Source: Pagrus major (Eukaryota; Chordata; Actinopteri; Spariformes; Sparidae). From it: a stretch of DNA of 64,000 nucleotides. The DNA lies in contig NC_133221.1 in NCBI RefSeq assembly GCF_040436345.1, positions 1,559,906 through 1,623,905 of the forward strand. Reading direction: 5' to 3'. A program made the position numbers and the translations under genes. The notes below the pieces were generated by a model. That model searched no databases. It saw only the letters and a program-made list of their open reading frames with translations, and was not told the DNA's origin. Positions 1 through 62,891 of the stretch are shown here, one piece after another (within the stretch, counting starts at the first letter, position 1; each line of letters starts with the position of its first letter).

Positions 1-455
1 GCACCACAAAGATAGTTGATAGTTGAGTCTCATTCCCAGGACGTCAAACAGCCACATGTTGGGTTGGTAAAGCGTCCCGAGCAGCAGCAAAGTGAGAAAA
101 TAAGAAACTCTCTGCAGATACGAGACACTAACACGCCTTTTCTCCCCATTCAGCCTCCCTCTCTGTCTGTTCACGTCTTTTACGTCTTTGTTTCGTCTCG
201 CTGCGTCTGCCGTGCGTGATGTGCTCTGATAGGTCGACATGTTGGGAAGGCGGCGTGCGATGACGCCAAATAACAATAATCCATAATTCACCTCAAACGC
301 ATCAAACTAAAGTAACGAGGCTGTTTGAAGCTGTGAGGAGGAGAAAGTTCAGATGTTTGTGTTCAGTTGTAGAGAGGGAAAGTCTCAGAGATACTCAGGT
401 ACAGGACAGATACCTGAAACATGTACTGAAGTACAGTAACAGTAGTATTTGTACT
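1..455. repeat. Interspersed repeat, copy A (inverted partner at 51760-52201)
   Basis: This block matches the reverse complement of 51760-52201 almost base for base, apart from an indel near 240-275 and scattered substitutions. It is cut by the window edge, so its outer end is unknown. An open frame of 67 codons at 16-219 recurs in the other copy, but only because the DNA is alike; there is no protein evidence. The opening bases also resemble 33640-33690 and 44590-44630, so this looks like a dispersed mobile-element family rather than a gene. Family not recognised. Confidence 0.75.
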
Positions 456-17164: not shown

Positions 17165-19392
17165 TCAGGTGCGTCTCCTCTTGGCGCCTCCCGGACTCGC
17201 CGGGTTGGAAGACGACAGCAGTTTGTCGGCCGTTCGACTCCTCTTCCTCTTCTCCGCCTCCTTCCCTCCTCCTCCTCCTCCCGCTGCTCCTCCCTCGCTG
17301 CCTCCCTTCTCTTTGTCTCGCTCTCTCTCCTTGTCCCGACTGCTGCTCGTTCGCTCCGACATCTTCACCGAGGAGTTACTGCCTGGAGAGAGAGAGCGAG
17401 AGAGAGCGACAGGAAATGAGTCATACAAACTGTACGTCACATCATATCATGTTAATAACACAGTTGGACCTGTTGCATCTTTGGTTCATGAGTTCATCTG
17501 GTTGCTGTTTCACTAGAAACTGAGTCGTTGATAGTCATTGTTGTTGTTGTTGTTGTTTTACAGTTGTGGTCACAGAACCAAGAGACGAAACTCACAGTAA
17601 AGATAAAAGATAAAATTAGATTGAATTGCATTTTTCCCCAAATTTCTACAGAATACTGAGGCTGAACTAATTAACGATGATGATATTATCGTTAATTTGT
17701 TTCATGATAAGATATTATTGCAAATTTGTTCGGCCACAATAATCATGTAGTGAAACTGATATCTGACAGCCCTGATTAAAACAGAAAAGCTTCATGTCTA
17801 CAAGGCAGCGGAGGTAAACGACGGCACGATGTTTTCAAAGACGGCTTCCTGTCCGGTCTCACGACTCTGCACATCCCTGATTCGATCTGACTTTTGATTT
17901 TAAGGTTACGATTTGATTCAATGTTTTATTTAACAGACAGAAAATCTGTTCACAGCAAAGTGACACAGGGCAGTTTAAAGGTGTAATATGTGTCGAACTC
18001 ATACTAAAAACAAATAGGAGGCAGCATGTTGCTAGATTAAGTTCTGTACTGTAGCTTACATTAGCTAGTTAGCTCAGTTAGCCTTGTAAGTAGTGGTCTA
18101 GAATGAGAGCTCTGAGTACCGGGGACTCCAGGGGAGTGTCGGTGTTTACACCACTAGCACTGGAGCAGGTCAGGGCTAGTTAGTTAGCATGCTGCGATAC
18201 ACGACGCAGACATCATACTGTAAAAACTTATCTTTAAGTTGACAGTGTGACAGAAATGACAGGACAGACAAAGAACCGCTGCGTCTGAGCACCGTGAACA
18301 GAGACGGTACCTTCTTCATGTGTAGCCGGAGGTTCTCTCTCCATCCTGAACTCCTCTTTGCTGTCCTCCTCTGAGCCCAGCTTCCCTGAGAGAGAAACGT
18401 CCAGAGAAGTGTTTGTGCCTTCAAAGCATCAATGAGCAGAATTTAAACATTTCAGACGTCGTTGACTGTCGGTGTTTGTATCGACACTAACTGGGAATCC
18501 AAATCAAATGTGACTCCACCTTCACCCACCTGTCTCTGTCCTCGGCAGCAGGACGACTTACGGGAGAAATGTACTGAACAGAGCTGTGTTTACATGTAGG
18601 CTCAGCACTGTTTGTATTGACTGACCCTTTTGATTCTATCAGTGAAGCTGCTGAGTTCATGGGCACTCCGGGAGGCTTGATAAGTTATTACAGACACCAT
18701 TAATAAGTTGACATTAATAACACGTAAACAGCAGCTGATCTGTGTGATGTAAACAGCTGCACGCTGACTGACAGAGACAGTCTGTTCCATGAGAAACACT
18801 TCCTGTGAGGCCGTACTTACACATGCGTTGAGCTAAATGCTAACGGCAGCATGCTAACATGCTGATGTTTAGTAGGCATAATGTTTACCATGTTTACTAT
18901 GTTAGCTCTGAATGTTAGCATGCTAACAGTAGCTACGAGACGAGACCAGAGCTTTACATGGTGGTCTATGAGATAAACAGAAGAAGTGAGTGAAGCTGCA
19001 GAGAACAGAAGAAGATCATGTTCTAGTGGAGGCGTCACATCATGTCCTCACATGATGTCGTCACATCACATCATGTCCTCACATCACATCATGTCCTCAC
19101 ATCCCATCATGTCCTCACATCCCATCATGTCCTCACATCCCATCATGTCCTCACATCCCATCATGTCGTCACATCCCATCATGTCCTCACATCCCATCAT
19201 GTCGTCACATCCCAGCGTGTAAAATGTTTAAATAACTGCAAGGAACTGTGGGTAATCTACAGAGAGAGAGCCACATTATCATCCCAACAGAGATCACGCT
19301 CTCACCTTCTTTAACCTCCTGGATGATGTCATCAGGCAGAGAGAAGCTCTTCTCTGAGTTTGGAAACGGCAGGATCTCCGACTCGTGCTGCA

Positions 19393-19435
<43 letters not shown>

Positions 19436-19476
19436 AGTCACATACCAAAGGTTTCACAAGTGATGAACACAGTCAG

Positions 19477-19521
<45 letters not shown>

Positions 19522-21863
19522 TCACCAGAGCCTGCATGTCGTACATGGTTCCCAGATGGTCCCAGATGACGGAGGAGGAAACCTGCCGGCCGATGTTCTG
19601 ACTGAACTTGTCTCTGATACAGATCATGTGGAAGTGACGGTTCACTCCTGAAGAGACACACACACAGTTACACACTCGCTCTATACAGTGTAATAAATAA
19701 TAATAAACTTTATTTATACAGCACCTAATAAACAATGGTAGAAGCAGAATTTAATACAAATGAGACAATTAGGGGTCGACTGATACGACTTGTTCAGCAG
19801 CGGTTTTTAAAATCGAGGTGTGTGAAAAACAATATTTGGGACCGATATTCATTTGCACTAAAAACAAACAGTGACAAAATTAAAGTAAAATTTACTCAAG
19901 TACTGTTCTTGAGTACAATTTTCAGGTACTTCTCTGCTACTTCATACTTCCCCTCCACTACATTTATTTGATAACTTTAGTTACGTTGCAGATTGAGATT
20001 ATTTTATTGTTTATAGACTATTAATTGTGACGTGTTATCAATCAGACAGTGTTACTGGCAGGATGTTGCATCAGAGCCAAAGTAGCTCATTTGTTTTAAT
20101 TGGTGTATTTTATAGGCTATCTGACATAAAAAATAAACCGATACAGAGACAATTCAGATGATTATCTGATTATCGTCCAGACAGTTACAGATAAAACAAA
20201 GCTACACCTGAAGATGTTGAAGAACAGTGAGGACATAAAGTCTGAGACCTCGAGTCAAAATATATAAATATTTATTTTCTATTTGTTTCAAATGTTCAAT
20301 ACAAATAATAATATCAGTTTTATCAGTTTGAGTGAAAAGTTGAATCTTTGAAAAATGTCCATGAATGTCAGAATATCTCAGTATCTGGTTTGTCCTCCTT
20401 CATGCACTCGAGCTGCATGGACTCCACAAGTGAGTGTAGAACCTGCTGACTCATGTTACCCCAGCATGATGTGACAGGGTTCCACAAAGCTTCTTGTTTG
20501 GCTTTCTTTGTCTCCAAGTGCCCCCATAAATGTTGAATGGTGTTGAGGTCCGGTGACTGTGGAGGACAGTCCAGGACAGTCAGGACTCCTCGGTCTTCTC
20601 TGGTCTTTGAGGTGCGTTTGGGCTCCACAAACATCGAACCAGAGGGTGGAGCACGTCTCTGAAGGATGGAGTGGTGCTTCTGCTCGGTCAGGGTGGAGTC
20701 AGTCCTGTGCAGGAGTCTGAAAACATCTTCCAGCACCATGTTTCACTGTGGCTTTGAAACACTGTGGGGTCGTTCTGTCTCCTGTCCGCCTCCTTACATA
20801 CACCCTCCTGTTACTGACACTGATCCATCACTGGGATTCATCAGTAAATACACTCTTTTTATTGTATTTCTGAGCCCAACTCAAGTGTTTGTCCTTGTTT
20901 CCCTCCTGAGAAGTGGTTCAGAAACGTCTCCCCGTCCTCTGAGGCACTACAGGACAGCCTTCTGACAGGACGACTGCTGATTGATTATTCAATAAATTCA
21001 GTATCTGTGGTGAAGTGTTTTCCATCTCTCAGTGAACTGAGCTTCATGTGTTGATCCACTGATGGTGTGATCACTTTGGCTTTGGATACAACTGAGCTCC
21101 AGCACTGACCCCTGACAAGCCTTTAGTCCAATCACGATTAGACACTGAATAACTTCGCGTACCTTCTGAATCTGATCATTTCTGATTAATTCCAGGTTTA
21201 TGTGACGATATTACAGATTTTAAACGTGGTGTCAGACTTTTGGACTGCACCGTGTAAACACAGAATGCACACTGGTTATTTTAACTCGATGTTGATGTGA
21301 ATCTTTACATTTCCCATGACCCCTGAACGCGGCACAGACCTGCACCTTGACACCTGGAGTTTAAGTTTATTTTTGGGGGAAATGAAACTTTAAATATAAT
21401 CTCAGTGTCTTATTTTAAGCTCTGGTCGGATTTCACTGCAGCTGAGGCTGATCTGTCTCTGATCGGGTTTGTTTTCAGCTCAAACTATTTTATTTTTGGA
21501 CAAAATTAGAAAAACTAGCGGAAGAAAAACAGAAGAAGTCAAACTGGCGTCCAGTAATTAGACGGACCCCTCGGACGCGTCCGGGACCTCCAGTCCGGGA
21601 CACGGCGGGTTAAACGGGTCGGAGTGTGTAGCAGTTAGCGGAGTGTGTAGCAGTTAGCGGAGTGTGTAGCAGTTAGCGGCTCCAGCGGCTAACATGCTAA
21701 TAAACGTTAGCTGCCTCTTACCGACGGGCTTGTGTCCGATCATCGCGTGAAACAGACAGACCTCCACCTCGTGGCTCCACACCACCGAGTCCTCCCCGGG
21801 AACCAGCGCCGCGTCCGGAGGCTTCTCGTCGGTCTGATTCAGCGTCACGTCTGCTTCCCCCAT
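17165..21863 (-). CDS. mrgbp: MRG/MORF4L-binding protein (MRGBP), complete, five coding exons
   Basis: Subunit of the TIP60/NuA4 histone acetyltransferase complex, a nuclear chromatin regulator that binds MRG15-type proteins (family knowledge). Coding exons, in transcript order: 21722-21863, 19526-19647, 19306-19387, 18311-18385, 17165-17382. All have GT-AG borders and the phases join to 212 codons; human MRGBP is of similar length. The conserved EAF7-type core spans about residues 28-115 ([20 protein letters not shown], then [20 protein letters not shown] and [20 protein letters not shown]). Exon 4 is acidic and poorly conserved. Exon 5 is Ser/Lys/Glu- and Gly-rich with basic, nuclear-signal-like KRKRSR and a C-terminal AKRRRT typical of the family. 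The start is the first ATG in exon 1, giving MGEAD as in the human protein. Intron 1 holds a Tc1 relic, intron 2 is almost all CA/GT repeat, intron 3 holds an 18-bp minisatellite. Very sure of identity. Confidence 0.95.
17975..18185. repeat. Dispersed repeat in mrgbp intron 4, related to 3475-3735
   Basis: Shares ordered phrases with 3475-3735, including TTAGCTAGTTAGCTCAGTTAG and the GAGCTC and GTTTACA blocks. It sits in the mrgbp intron between exons 4 and 5. Old, diverged, non-coding. Confidence 0.55.
19040..19216. repeat. 18-bp minisatellite in mrgbp intron 3
   Basis: Tandem TCCTCACATCCCATCATG units, about nine in a row, with early units carrying ATCAC in place of ATCCC and some carrying GTCGTC in place of GTCCTC. 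Because the unit is a multiple of three it creates open frames on the plus strand; these are not genes. Confidence 0.95.
19388..19525 (-). promoter_or_regulatory. mrgbp: mrgbp intron 2: (AC)n at the 5' splice site and (GT)n at the 3' splice site
   Basis: This intron is only 138 bases. Read on the coding (minus) strand it starts GTGAGG, runs straight into about 40 bases of (AC)n (19480-19519), has a spacer of 47 bases, then about 39 bases of (GT)n (19394-19432) ending TGATGCAG. The two tracts are complementary and could fold into a long stem that brings the splice sites together. The acceptor has no polypyrimidine tract. This arrangement, (AC)m-(GT)n, has been reported for fish introns in which RNA pairing stands in for U2AF2; that link is from memory. 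Function here is inferred. Confidence 0.6.
20230..21252 (-). pseudogene. Tc1/mariner transposon relic with broken transposase, in mrgbp intron 1
   Basis: On the minus strand 20368-20739 encodes the C-terminal half of a Tc1-type transposase: [14 protein letters not shown], then the DDE-region signature [19 protein letters not shown] and a tail ending in LVESM. The usual QQDNDPKHTS block has decayed to a few residues (EPKRTSK) and the N-terminal helix-turn-helix half is not open. Ends resembling inverted repeats read AAAGTCTGAGACC (20237-20249) and GGTGTCAGACTTTTGGACTG (21226-21245). It is non-functional and lies antisense to nothing coding. Confidence 0.7.
21621..21677. repeat. 19-bp tandem repeat, three copies, in mrgbp intron 1
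   Basis: Three perfect units of GGAGTGTGTAGCAGTTAGC starting at 21621, 21640 and 21659. It lies about 45 bases inside the intron from the exon 1 donor. Confidence 0.95.
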
Positions 21864-30181: not shown

Positions 30182-33100
30182 CGGTCACAGCAGGAATCAC
30201 AACACATCAGACGTGATGATACAAACAGATTGAGGACAATGAAGACACAATGACATTCAGCTCTACTGGAGACATTACAACCTGTCTCAGTCTCACATAC
30301 TTACATTTGATTGGTGCTTCAAAGGACTTGGCAACCGTTACCATGACGTTGGTCCCAAACACCTGGAGAGAGAGTGAGAGGGCGAGCAGACAGATGTTAG
30401 AGACCATTTTTTAAATCAGCCTGCTGATGTCCAGTGGCAAATAAAAGTACAAATTCTTCTAATTAAATAATGAACATGTGATGGTTTTTATTGAATGTGA
30501 ATGTGTTCAAACTCAACTCACCCAGAAGACGTCGTAGACGAACAGCCCCCCCAGCAGGATGCAGCCGGTACTGACGTTGTTCAGGTGAAGCAGCTCCACT
30601 CCGTTCAGGGCGAACGCCAGGCCGAACAGGTTATTGGCTATCCAGTGCTGTGATGTCACAAAACACACAGGTTATTGGCTATAAAGTGCTGTGATGTCAC
30701 AAAACACACAGGTTATTGACTATAAAGTGCTGTGATGTCACAAAACACAGACAAAAATAATTGCTGTTTGTGATGTCACATAATCGACTGATCTGGCATC
30801 ATAAAACATGGTTTAACTCATGTGATTGGTTACCCAGTGCTGTGACATCATGGAAACAGTCACATGTTTGTTTTAACCTCTAACCTGTCAGACTTTACCT
30901 TTTTGAGCAGGTACCAGACTCCCACCACACTGCTGATGAGCAGACACACCAGGTTCTTGGTGTCAAACTCATAGTTGACGATTTCTGCAGAGAGACGGAG
31001 AGATATGAGTCAGGCTGAAGAGGCGGTTCAACCAAATTACAAAAAAAAAACGTGGAGGTTTCTGCCTCCACCACAGAGACAATTTTTTTCATATATTCAC
31101 AACAAAAGTTGTCTCTGACACGTTAGCTTGTGGTGCCAACGTGTCAAGAAGCCCCGAGATCCCAGATTGATTTGAAAAGACGTTATTGACACCCTTTTTG
31201 TAGCTGCTGAACTAAAAGAAGGTCGAGGGTGTAAATAACATGTTCTCAAATCATTGTGTGATCTCTTCTCTCCTGCAGACTGTGATCACAGCAGACGAGC
31301 TGTATGGAGACATCTGATGTTTAAATCGTCTCCAGCTGCTTCAGGTGTTCAGCAGAACGCTGCAACTCTGTTTTACTGTGAAGCTCCAGAAATGTTTTGT
31401 GGACTACGAGACTTCACCTGACTTTATATCATCAGGAGGAGATGATGGCTGAGCCTGACTTTATATCATCAGGAGGAGACGATGGCTGAGCCTGACTTTA
31501 TATCATCAGGAGATGATGACTGAGCCTGACTTTATATCATCAGGAGGAGATGATGACTGAGCCTGACTTTATATCATCAGGAGATGATGGCTGAGCCTGA
31601 CTTTATATCATCAGGAGGAGATGATGGCTGAGCCTGACTTTATATCATCAGGAGGAGATGATGACTGAGCCTGACTTTATATCATCAGGAGGAGATGATG
31701 ACTGAGCCTGACTTTATATCATCAGGAGGAGATGATGGCTGAGCCTGACTTTATATCATCAGGAGGAGATGATGGCTGAGCCTGACTTTATATCATCAGG
31801 AGGAGATGATGGCTGAGCCTGACTTTATATCATCAGGAGGAGATGATGGCTGAGCCTGACTTTATATCATCAGGAGGAGATGATGGCTGAGCCTGACTTT
31901 ATATCATCAGGAGGAGATGATGGCTGAGCCTGACTTTATATCATCAGGAGGAGATGATGGCTGAGCCTGACTTTATTTCATCAGGAGGAGATGATGGCTG
32001 AGCCTGACTTTATATCATCAGGAGGAGATGATGACTGAGCCTGACTTTATATCATCAGGAGGAGATGATGACTGAGCCTGACTTTATATCATCAGGAGGA
32101 GATGATGACTGAGCCTGACTTTATATCATCAGGAGATGATGGCTGAGCCTGACTTTATATCATCAGGAGGAGATGATGACTGAGCCTGACTTTATATCAT
32201 CAGGAGGAGATGATGGCTGAGCCTGACTTTATATCATCAGGAGGAGATGATGGCTGAACCTGACTTTATATCATCAGGAGGAGATGATGGCTGAGCCTGA
32301 CTTTATATCATCAGGAGGAGATGATGGCTGAAAGTACATTTTTTGGGTGAACTGTTCCTTTTAAGAAACAGTCCAGTATGAAAACTGTCAACAATGTGTT
32401 CTGTAGATGATCCGGAGCAACACGCACACGTGTTCAATATCATGAACACTGAACACTATAAACAAAACTCAAAAACTATCTGCATGGAGAGAAACTACTG
32501 GAGCAGCCTGAGGAGCTACCTGAGGAGACACATCACTTCATTTTAACAGACCAACAAGGCTGGAAGTTGTTGCTTTAGAGGTTTGTGAGGAGGTACGATG
32601 TTCAACAGTGGAGTCAAACTAAAGTGCATTGGACTACATGTCCAGGATGAGCTCAGATGATGACACACTGGTCCTTTGACCTCTTGGTAAACACTGGTGT
32701 GTTGCAGCAGGTCTCACCCTCTTTGGACTCTCCGGAGCCCTGAGTGAAGAGCAGCTGGTACTGTTTGTTTGGGAAAGACTCTGGAAAGATTCTGGACATC
32801 AGAGGACTGAGGGACAGAAACAAAAAGAAAGTGAACATCACGGACAACCTCAGTGAACCTGTCATATTTCACAACACGTCCATCGGTGCGTCGCTGTACC
32901 TCATAGTGTGAGACAGAGCCAGCACGCCCAGGCCGAAGAAGTAGACGGACAGCAGCAGGTTGATGTACTCTTGAGAAAATACCTGCGTCAAAACACATTA
33001 AAGTCAGTGTGGAGGAAGCTTTTATCACAGTGCCATCTGTTCTTCTCCATGAGGCCCCTGGAGGACAGCTGAGGAAACCCCGAGATACCTTGAAGAAGAG

Positions 33101-51759: not shown

Positions 51760-52201
51760 ACAAATACTCTGTTCCTGTACTTCAGTACATGTTTCAGGTA
51801 TCTGTCCTGTACCTGAGTATCTCTGAGACTTTCCCTCTCTACATCTGAACACAAACATCTGAACTTTCTCCTCCTCACAGCTTCAAACAGCCTCGTTACT
51901 TTAGTTTGATGCATTTGAGGTGAATTATGGATTATTGTTATTTCCCAACATCACCAGACTGATGTCGACCTATCAGAGCACATCACGCACGGCAGACGCA
52001 GCGAGACGAAACAAAGACGTAAAAGACGTAAACAGACAGAGAGGGAGGCTGAATGGGGAGAAAAGGCGTGTTAGTGTCTTGTATCTGCAGAGAGTTTCTT
52101 ATTTTCTCTCTTTGTTGCTGCTCGGGACGCTTTACCAACCCAACATGTGGCTGTTTGACGTCCTGGGAATGAGACTCAACTATCAACTATCTTTGTGGTG
52201 C
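51760..52201. repeat. Interspersed repeat, copy B (inverse of 1-455)
   Basis: Reverse complement of the block at the window start, with matching sequence from CATGTGGCTGTTTGACGTCC through GTACTTCAGTACATGTTTCA. The outer border near 52201 is followed by unrelated DNA, which gives one true end of the family. Confidence 0.75.
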
Positions 52202-52319
52202 GTTCAGGAACAGCTGGGACAAATCCTACTGACTCTACCTTTAACTTTAATAGTCTTTGAATTATATTAATATGACGTGAGCTTCAGTTAGCTTTGACCA
52301 CAAATGTCCTTCAGAGGGA

Positions 52320-61677: not shown

Positions 61678-62891
61678 TAGGGGTGTCACGATTTCGATTT
61701 TTTATCGAAATCGATCGAAATTACGTCACGATCTCGAGCATCGAAGTCAAAGAGAGGATCGACGATCCCCCCCCTCCCCGTGTACAAAGCTACGCACACT
61801 ACGCAAAGTTACGCAAATGACGCAGCACATTGTAGCCGACGCCGCTAGTTACCTATCCTGCAGGTTATGACACGATGGCGAGTGCAGATAAAGGAGGAGA
61901 CGCGGCACCGGAGCTTGAGCTCCTGCTTCTCTTAAATCACATGTATGGAAATACTTTGCGTTCCCGGTGAGTTATGTCGACGACGTTCGCGTTGTTGACA
62001 AGAAGACCACAGTGTGTAAGATATGCTATGCGCGTGTACCATACCCGGCCACGGGAAACACTACGAACATGGCAGGACACATTCGCCGGCATCACAAAGA
62101 TGTAGATTTGACAGCTGGGAAAGCACCATCACTGGTCCAGCCAACTATTCAATCCTCGTTTGCAATAAAACTTCCACAGACCTCAGCTCGCGCAAAAGCT
62201 ATAACTAGCGCTATAGGGCTATTTATAGCAGCAGACCTGCAGCCTTACTCGGTGGTGGAAAACACGGGATTTAAACATTTAATTAGCGTACTTGAGCCAC
62301 GCTACAGTATGCCCAGCAGGTCGCATCTTACAACAAAAGTGGTTCCCTCCATGTATGAAGACGTTAAAGAAAAAGTTGTGAGGGGTCTGAGCAATGCAGA
62401 GTTAGTTGCCTTAACAACAGATGGCTGGACCTCAAGAGCAACTGAGAGTTACATCACCGTCACAGCGCACTACGTCAATAAAGATTGGGAGATTGAAAGT
62501 CCAGTCCTTCAAACTCGCCCCATCTATGAAGCACACACAAGTGATAATCTGGCAGAAGTGCTAAAGGAAGCGTCTCATTGTTGTTTGTTTTTGTTGTTGA
62601 AAACAAGATTGTTACCTTTATATTGCAAATAAATAATTTAAATTTGACCATTAGTGCCTAATGTGATACATTATGGAAATTGCATCACTTACATGTAGCC
62701 CAACTTTTGAAATAAGATTTACTGTACAAAATTTGATGAATAAAACCAATGATCGTAGACTAGACTAGTCTGAAAATAGCATAGGCGTCTGTGCTGTAAG
62801 AAAAAGAAAAAAATCGAGAATCGAATCGAATCATGACCCTAAAATCGAAAATCAAATCGAATCGAGGATTTGGAGAATCGTGACACCCCTA
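61678..62891 (+). mobile_element. Internally deleted hAT transposon with target-site duplication
   Basis: Terminal inverted repeats TAGGGGTGTCACGATT (61678) and AATCGTGACACCCCTA (ending 62891), flanked by a perfect 8-base duplication CTGACGAG at 61670-61677 and 62892-62899. Eight-base duplications and a TAGGGGTG terminus are hAT features. Subterminal DNA is rich in TCGATT/AATCGA. The 1214-bp element keeps only the start of its transposase gene, so it could move only with help from a full copy elsewhere. The perfect duplication suggests a fairly recent insertion. It lies in snx21 intron 1 in the same orientation as snx21. Confidence 0.93.
61875..62632 (+). pseudogene. Truncated BED-finger hAT transposase (ZBED-like)
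   Basis: A start at 61875 (MASADKGG) is separated by a single-base-type frameshift near 61910-61934 from the main frame, which begins KSHVWKYFAFPVSYVDD. A BED zinc finger follows: CKIC at about 62013-62024 and HIRRHH at 62080-62097, giving the C-x2-C...H-x4-H pattern. Then a hAT N-terminal region containing ALTTDGWTSRATESY, the conserved T-D-G-W-T-S segment with the first catalytic Asp. After AEVLKEA (about 62571) homology stops and the frame ends in 3' flanking DNA, so the rest of the RNase-H-like domain and the dimerisation domain are deleted. Inactive. Confidence 0.9.

Follow-up and report, generated by a model that had tools for sequence, protein, structure and literature searches.

The 64,000-nt window of Pagrus major DNA analysed here (C7:1559906-1623905, contig NC_133221.1) carries the gene mrgbp on its minus strand. 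The element in question is the second intron of that gene, 138 nt long (window 19388-19525), which reads GTGAGG, (AC)20, a 47-nt loop, a 39-nt GT arm and ATGCAG from 5' to 3'. Exon 2 ends with ...DMQAL at 19526, the intron runs from 19525 down to 19388, and exon 3 starts with HESEILPF at 19387. The join QAL/HESE is fixed by an ungapped match to human MRGBP (PDB 2n1d_A, E 4.1e-23, query residues 18-68), and the joined exons match the Pfam family Eaf7 (E 2.4e-9). In the 786 Mb genome the mrgbp protein has only 2 matches, which are these two exons. A human MRGBP query puts exon 1 near 21863-21720 and the final coding part at 17248-17168, which makes the AC-GT intron intron 2. The features of the gene, in transcript order, are:

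21720-21863, minus strand: mrgbp exon 1, ends approximate (tblastn, human MRGBP query)
19526-19648, minus strand: mrgbp exon 2 (GVNRHFH...MQAL), ending at the donor (homology to human MRGBP and Pfam Eaf7)
19520-19525, minus strand: 5' splice site and spacer GTGAGG (sequence)
19480-19519, minus strand: (AC)20 arm, in transcript sense (sequence)
19433-19479, minus strand: 47-nt loop with branch-point-like CTGAC and GTGAC and acceptor-like CTTAG (sequence)
19394-19432, minus strand: GT arm of 39 nt, (GT)19 plus G, containing no A (sequence)
19388-19393, minus strand: 3' splice site ATGCAG, without a pyrimidine tract (sequence)
19306-19387, minus strand: mrgbp exon 3 (homology to human MRGBP)
17168-17248, minus strand: last mrgbp coding stretch, RKRSRTADK...AKRRRT (tblastn, human MRGBP query)

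The coordinates, length, loop and both tracts of the intron are as a preliminary description of the locus had given them. Its claim that the acceptor lacks a pyrimidine tract also holds, as the 20 nt before CAG are 45% pyrimidine and no run of pyrimidines in the 40 nt before CAG is longer than 1. The tracts had further been placed directly at the splice sites; they are present, but each stands 6 nt from its splice site. Downstream of the GT arm a single A precedes the final AG, at 5 nt from the 3' splice site; upstream of the arm the nearest A is 46 nt from the acceptor. An A only 5 nt from the 3' splice site is too close to act as a branch point. Because the GT arm has no A and this remaining A is too close, the branch point is expected in the loop or within the AC arm, 46 nt or more from the acceptor. 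In the loop, the A of CTGAC is 85 nt and that of GTGAC 50 nt from the 3' splice site.

U12-type introns have an ATATCC or GTATCC donor and a TCCTTAAC branch point. The mrgbp intron has the donor GTGAGG, and no TCCTTAAC motif was found by eye in its 138 nt; a minor-spliceosome intron was rejected. A pseudogene or second gene copy was also rejected, since the gene is single-copy and the exons found have no stops. Long dinucleotide arrays are generally prone to error in assembly, but the idea that the intron reflects an assembly error or a dead gene copy is scarcely credible: besides being free of stops and present in one copy, the exons found are conserved to human MRGBP, and the AC-GT pattern recurs in other genes.

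The predicted folding energy of the intron RNA is -84.7 kcal/mol (z -5.37), and none of 200 shuffled sequences was as stable. With both neighbouring exons included, z is -6.35 and none of 100 shuffles was as stable. The predicted AC-GT stem comprises 36-39 bp, and its base lies 6 nt from each splice site, in line with the earlier proposal that pairing would set donor and acceptor side by side. Deletion or inversion of the AC arm weakens the fold predicted by ViennaRNA to -14 to -15 kcal/mol.

Under independence, arrays of at least 36 nt within 10 nt of both splice sites are expected at about 3e-7 per intron. This estimate leaves out clustering: neighbouring opposite-type array pairs within 110 nt number 8 in 259 kb, the mrgbp pair counted, which by hand arithmetic is about six times the number derived from the density used in the estimate. 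A relaxed scan of the window and about 195 kb of sampled genome (4-unit arms, GTRAG donor) returned mrgbp as the sole AC-first case, together with one GT-first stretch. A second AC-first inverted microsatellite pair is present in the window at 823-1035; neither inspection by eye nor the relaxed scan found a GTRAG donor ahead of its AC arm on either strand.

Elsewhere in mrgbp, an 18-bp minisatellite of nine copies (19051-19214) lies just past exon 3 in the next intron. Intron 1 contains an open frame on the minus strand (20371-20742), a 13-residue stretch of which resembles a remnant of a Tc1/mariner transposase.

In zebrafish, about a tenth of genes reportedly carry an intron of the (AC)m-(GT)n type. 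Passages of four papers (PMC9198270, PMC7404189, PMC9508853, PMC9024468) mention fish introns whose donor end carries AC dimers and whose acceptor end carries GT dimers; according to these passages, such introns were studied by minigenes and mutagenesis and are reportedly spliced without U2AF2. The existence of such a published class, put forward in the preliminary description, agrees with these citing papers. As portrayed in those passages, the zebrafish introns of Lin et al. 2016 (Genome Res 26:12-23) resemble the mrgbp intron in having AC near the donor and GT near the acceptor, a strongly negative fold energy and splice sites drawn close. The mrgbp intron differs in belonging to another gene and another fish, and in that the argument for a branch point at the tip of the stem and the role in the second step of splicing are put forward in the present work. 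Judged by the titles of papers citing Lin et al. 2016 among the matches listed, no survey of the class in a fish other than zebrafish was found.

The features that can be tested on sequence fit the filing of the intron in this class, as had been suggested earlier, and the same order of tracts recurs elsewhere in the genome. On balance, we lean towards mrgbp intron 2 being an intron of the major spliceosome that belongs to the published (AC)m-(GT)n class, in which pairing would hold the splice sites together and for which we infer a role in the second step. By the evidence of its sequence, the mrgbp intron is real, beyond chance and correctly classed by structure; it adds a new member gene to a known class and is not a new kind of intron.

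The TG tract of CFTR intron 8 offers a partial parallel. In that intron a (TG)m tract stands just before the acceptor, as in mrgbp, but a T tract follows it and there is no paired AC arm at the donor. The mrgbp branch point, by its probable distance from the acceptor, has a second parallel in yeast. Passages of PMC9508853 give the human branch-point distance as 29.3 +- 11.9 nt, with an optimum of 19-23, and report, for budding and fission yeast, RNA folds that shorten the branch-point-to-acceptor distance. As described there, a long distance is made workable by a fold, which is the likeness to mrgbp; the yeast fold sits between branch point and acceptor, whereas in mrgbp the probable branch point has one of the arms upstream of it.

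In the published model, folding holds donor and acceptor together and would favour this pair of sites. Donor and branch point would stand at opposite ends of a stem of about 10 nm, so that the stem would have to open or bend before the first step. Once the lariat has formed, donor G and branch A are linked, and AC-GT pairing would then bring the acceptor near the catalytic centre, with only about 12 nt of single strand left between the two. Pairing that re-formed at this stage would aid exon ligation to the branch-distant acceptor and bypass the CTTAG of the loop. This exon-ligation role would add to the bridging role of the published model. Repeat length would make a difference only where the stem falls short of some minimum, and would not act as a dial.

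The CTTAG in the loop, which ends 45 nt ahead of the real acceptor, could also serve a two-acceptor switch. ATGCAG would be used when the stem is formed; with the stem open, CTGAC would reach CTTAG, and the resulting mRNA would be 45 nt longer, in frame at the present repeat number and with the extra residues inside MRGBP. CTGAC matches yUnAy, and its distance is 40 nt to CTTAG as against 85 nt to ATGCAG. The 45 added nucleotides would continue the open frame. The predicted fold leaves CTTAGG with a mean unpaired probability of 0.37-0.39, mostly paired, and would thereby hide CTTAG in part. An in-frame addition is nevertheless expected by chance in one case out of three, and the insert would differ with every repeat-length allele. 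We consider such a switch improbable.

Searching the genome with the pattern GTGAG N{0,10} (AC)7 N{20,50} (GT)7 gave 42 rows from 13 places, and the same pattern with N{51,81} gave 75 rows, among them mrgbp and six other places absent from the first set; the union is 20 places. Counts from these pattern searches, which covered one donor form and two gap ranges, can be lower bounds. Six of the 20 AC-first places are introns by homology, namely those in mrgbp, a calpain, a KIF1A-like kinesin, an ABCF-like gene, a PEAR1-like EGF gene and a GOST gene. Homology spans the join in the calpain (PDB 1zcm, E 2e-28), in the kinesin (E 6.4e-21) and in the ABCF-like gene (PDB 5zxd, E 3.6e-12; Pfam ABC_tran E 0.0006, under the curated cut-off). 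The PEAR1-like match (Pfam E 2.4e-8) is under the model's curated cut-off and its PDB matches are weak, and the GOST intron (Pfam E 1.2e-7) has a pyrimidine tract of its own. In an MBT-domain gene (E 2.4e-5) homology begins only 4-6 residues before the join. For L038 and L044 the support for an intron consists of open, codon-like frames alone, and L044 matches no family or structure.

Eight introns that lack a pyrimidine tract of their own share one anatomy: mrgbp, calpain, KIF1A-like, ABCF-like, PEAR1-like, MBT-like, L038 and L044. In each, the GT arm contains no A and reaches to 2-7 nt from the acceptor, and the last A upstream of that arm is 35-66 nt from the acceptor in seven of them and 25 nt in one, in every case farther than the human optimum of 19-23 nt.

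The two orders of the tracts were compared by a codon score, which used human codon usage, took the best join over both strands at each locus and applied a cut-off of 2 on both sides. The mrgbp intron scored 7.3. Among the AC-first places 7/19 passed, compared with 0/22 GT-first places and 0/28 AC-first hairpins flanked by CTCAC (one-sided Fisher p 0.0022 against GT-first, p 4.7e-5 against the pooled controls); at a cut-off of 4 the numbers were 3/19, 0/22 and 0/28. Of 24 GT-first loci fetched, 2 were unparsable and 22 were scored, and the CTCAC loci came from the first 100 of 189 rows, which gave 30 places (two test places left out), 29 fetched and 28 parsed. When rescored at the adopted joins, four of the 19 pass (L029, L036, L038, L041), with p worked out by hand at about 0.04 against GT-first and about 0.005 against the pooled controls; this restriction was put on the test set only and makes for a harsher comparison. 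Since many GT-first GTGAG words lie inside GT arrays, the GT-first control offers fewer true donors. Next to a donor, AC followed by GT is often the mark of an intron; the mirror order is not, though it pairs equally well. This order bias supports the class, yet suggests that pairing is not the sole constraint.

Several observations weigh against the preferred assignment to a class held together by pairing. GT-first hairpins pair equally well, yet none lies at an exon join by codon score. An intron is not established at the remaining 11 of the 20 AC-first places, including L035, which was read in part only, and L043. The passes of L037, L042 and L044 were at another join or strand than the intron; at the adopted joins L037 and L044 miss the cut-off on one side, while the downstream exon of L042 is shorter than the 75-nt scoring stretch, so that L042 does not pass. 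AC-first hairpins beside CTCAC outnumber those flanked by GTGAG (189 rows against 42), so the signal lies in the coding flanks and not in raw numbers, and GTGAG neighbours are not enriched as such. The reversed-pattern control gave 19 rows against 42, and 33 against 75, counted as rows and not as places. AC arms beside donor-like sites also occur without a GT arm. Finally, the lengths of the AC and GT arms are uncorrelated over nine introns (Spearman -0.08), and the idea that selection on the stem shows itself in arms of equal length was abandoned on this ground. Together with a shorter arm that ranges from 15 to 39 nt in these nine introns, the missing correlation counts against a simple length rule.

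Alternatively, the tracts would be passive microsatellites: AC and GT arrays, which are abundant in this genome, would be tolerated inside short introns only in the order that is harmless, with pairing as a by-product. GT after the donor would create decoy donors and AC there would be harmless, while GT before the acceptor, being half uridine, could serve as a poor pyrimidine tract or bind UG-binding proteins. Such passivity explains the order better than pairing does, none of the 22 mirror-order places being intron-like, and the unmatched arm lengths agree with it. GTGAG with (AC)10 alone has 433 forward-strand matches, and in a sample of ten such sites (C1, more than 4 Mb from the ends) none has a GT array of at least 5 units in the next 330 nt, and one of the ten clearly belongs to an HTRA exon (E 5.7e-14). 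A study of repeats linked to splicing in humans (PMC13174678) associates repeat length with hnRNP L binding for AC and with TDP-43 binding for GT.

Against passive arrays, independence predicts 0.6 introns with arms of at least 14 nt at both ends (for an assumed 220,000 introns, and with the roughly six-fold clustering not included), whereas eight without a pyrimidine tract of their own were found, two of them by open frame only. The effect of the structures on splicing of fish introns is moreover called highly significant, and confirmed by minigenes and mutagenesis, in a passage of the citing review PMC7404189. We regard passive arrays as a possible explanation, short of a probable one.

Within the AC-only sample, L104, L107 and L110 (C1 at 29.93, 35.04 and 35.51 Mb) are similar sequences whose end, GAGGGACA, is followed by GTGAG and a long AC array. 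They are apparently a multi-copy element that carries an AC tract beside a donor-like site; L110 is partly N.

The AC-first places are unevenly distributed along the contigs. Zones within 3 Mb of a contig end account for about 18% of the genome. They hold 19 of the 20 AC-first places, on C1, C2, C4, C5, C7, C10, C17, C22 and C23, the exception being on C16. The same zones hold 8/24 GT-first controls (p 2.8e-5) and 16/30 CTCAC controls (p 0.0016), the 3 Mb cut-off having been picked after the distances were seen. Recovery of a chosen interior site and the many interior control hits indicate that contig interiors are searched. The density of (AC)12 positions per kb is 1.9 in the window and 3.6 in its flanks, compared with 1.3 in 14 samples located 5 Mb from contig starts and with 0.84 over the whole genome; a higher array density near the ends may explain part of the bias. 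No title on chromosome-end bias was present among the matches listed in the literature search.

These strands can be joined in a wider proposal, which we hold only tentatively and think rather unlikely as a whole. The stem would act at exon ligation and not only in early site choice; the branch point would be forced to its tip; pairing would re-form round the lariat and carry the acceptor past a nearer AG; and such introns would be concentrated near chromosome ends. If this is true, they would be a natural structural substitute for acceptor choice guided by a pyrimidine tract, gathered in regions where the turnover of AC/GT arrays and short introns may be fastest. Should an annotated survey bear out the absence of the mirror order and the bias towards chromosome ends, any model of the class must account for both. 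The mrgbp intron is an unusually pure, near-symmetric example in a single-copy chromatin gene, with arms of 40 and 39 nt and spacers of 6 nt. Together with the five other homology-supported introns that combine an AC and a GT tract, of which four lack a pyrimidine tract of their own, it forms a matched set suited to asking whether RNA pairing replaces the pyrimidine tract, and at which step.

The rest of the window contains further repeats and open frames. A 37-bp minisatellite at 31417-32331 has 25 copies with 96% matches. The open frames at 1-306 (minus strand) and 51905-52267 (plus strand) share FDAFEVNYGLLLF and STYQSTSRTADAARRNKDVKDVNRQRGRLNGEKRRVSV and are two copies of one repeat. A 237-codon open frame on the plus strand (61919-62629) resembles, by eye, a BED zinc finger or the start of a hAT transposase.

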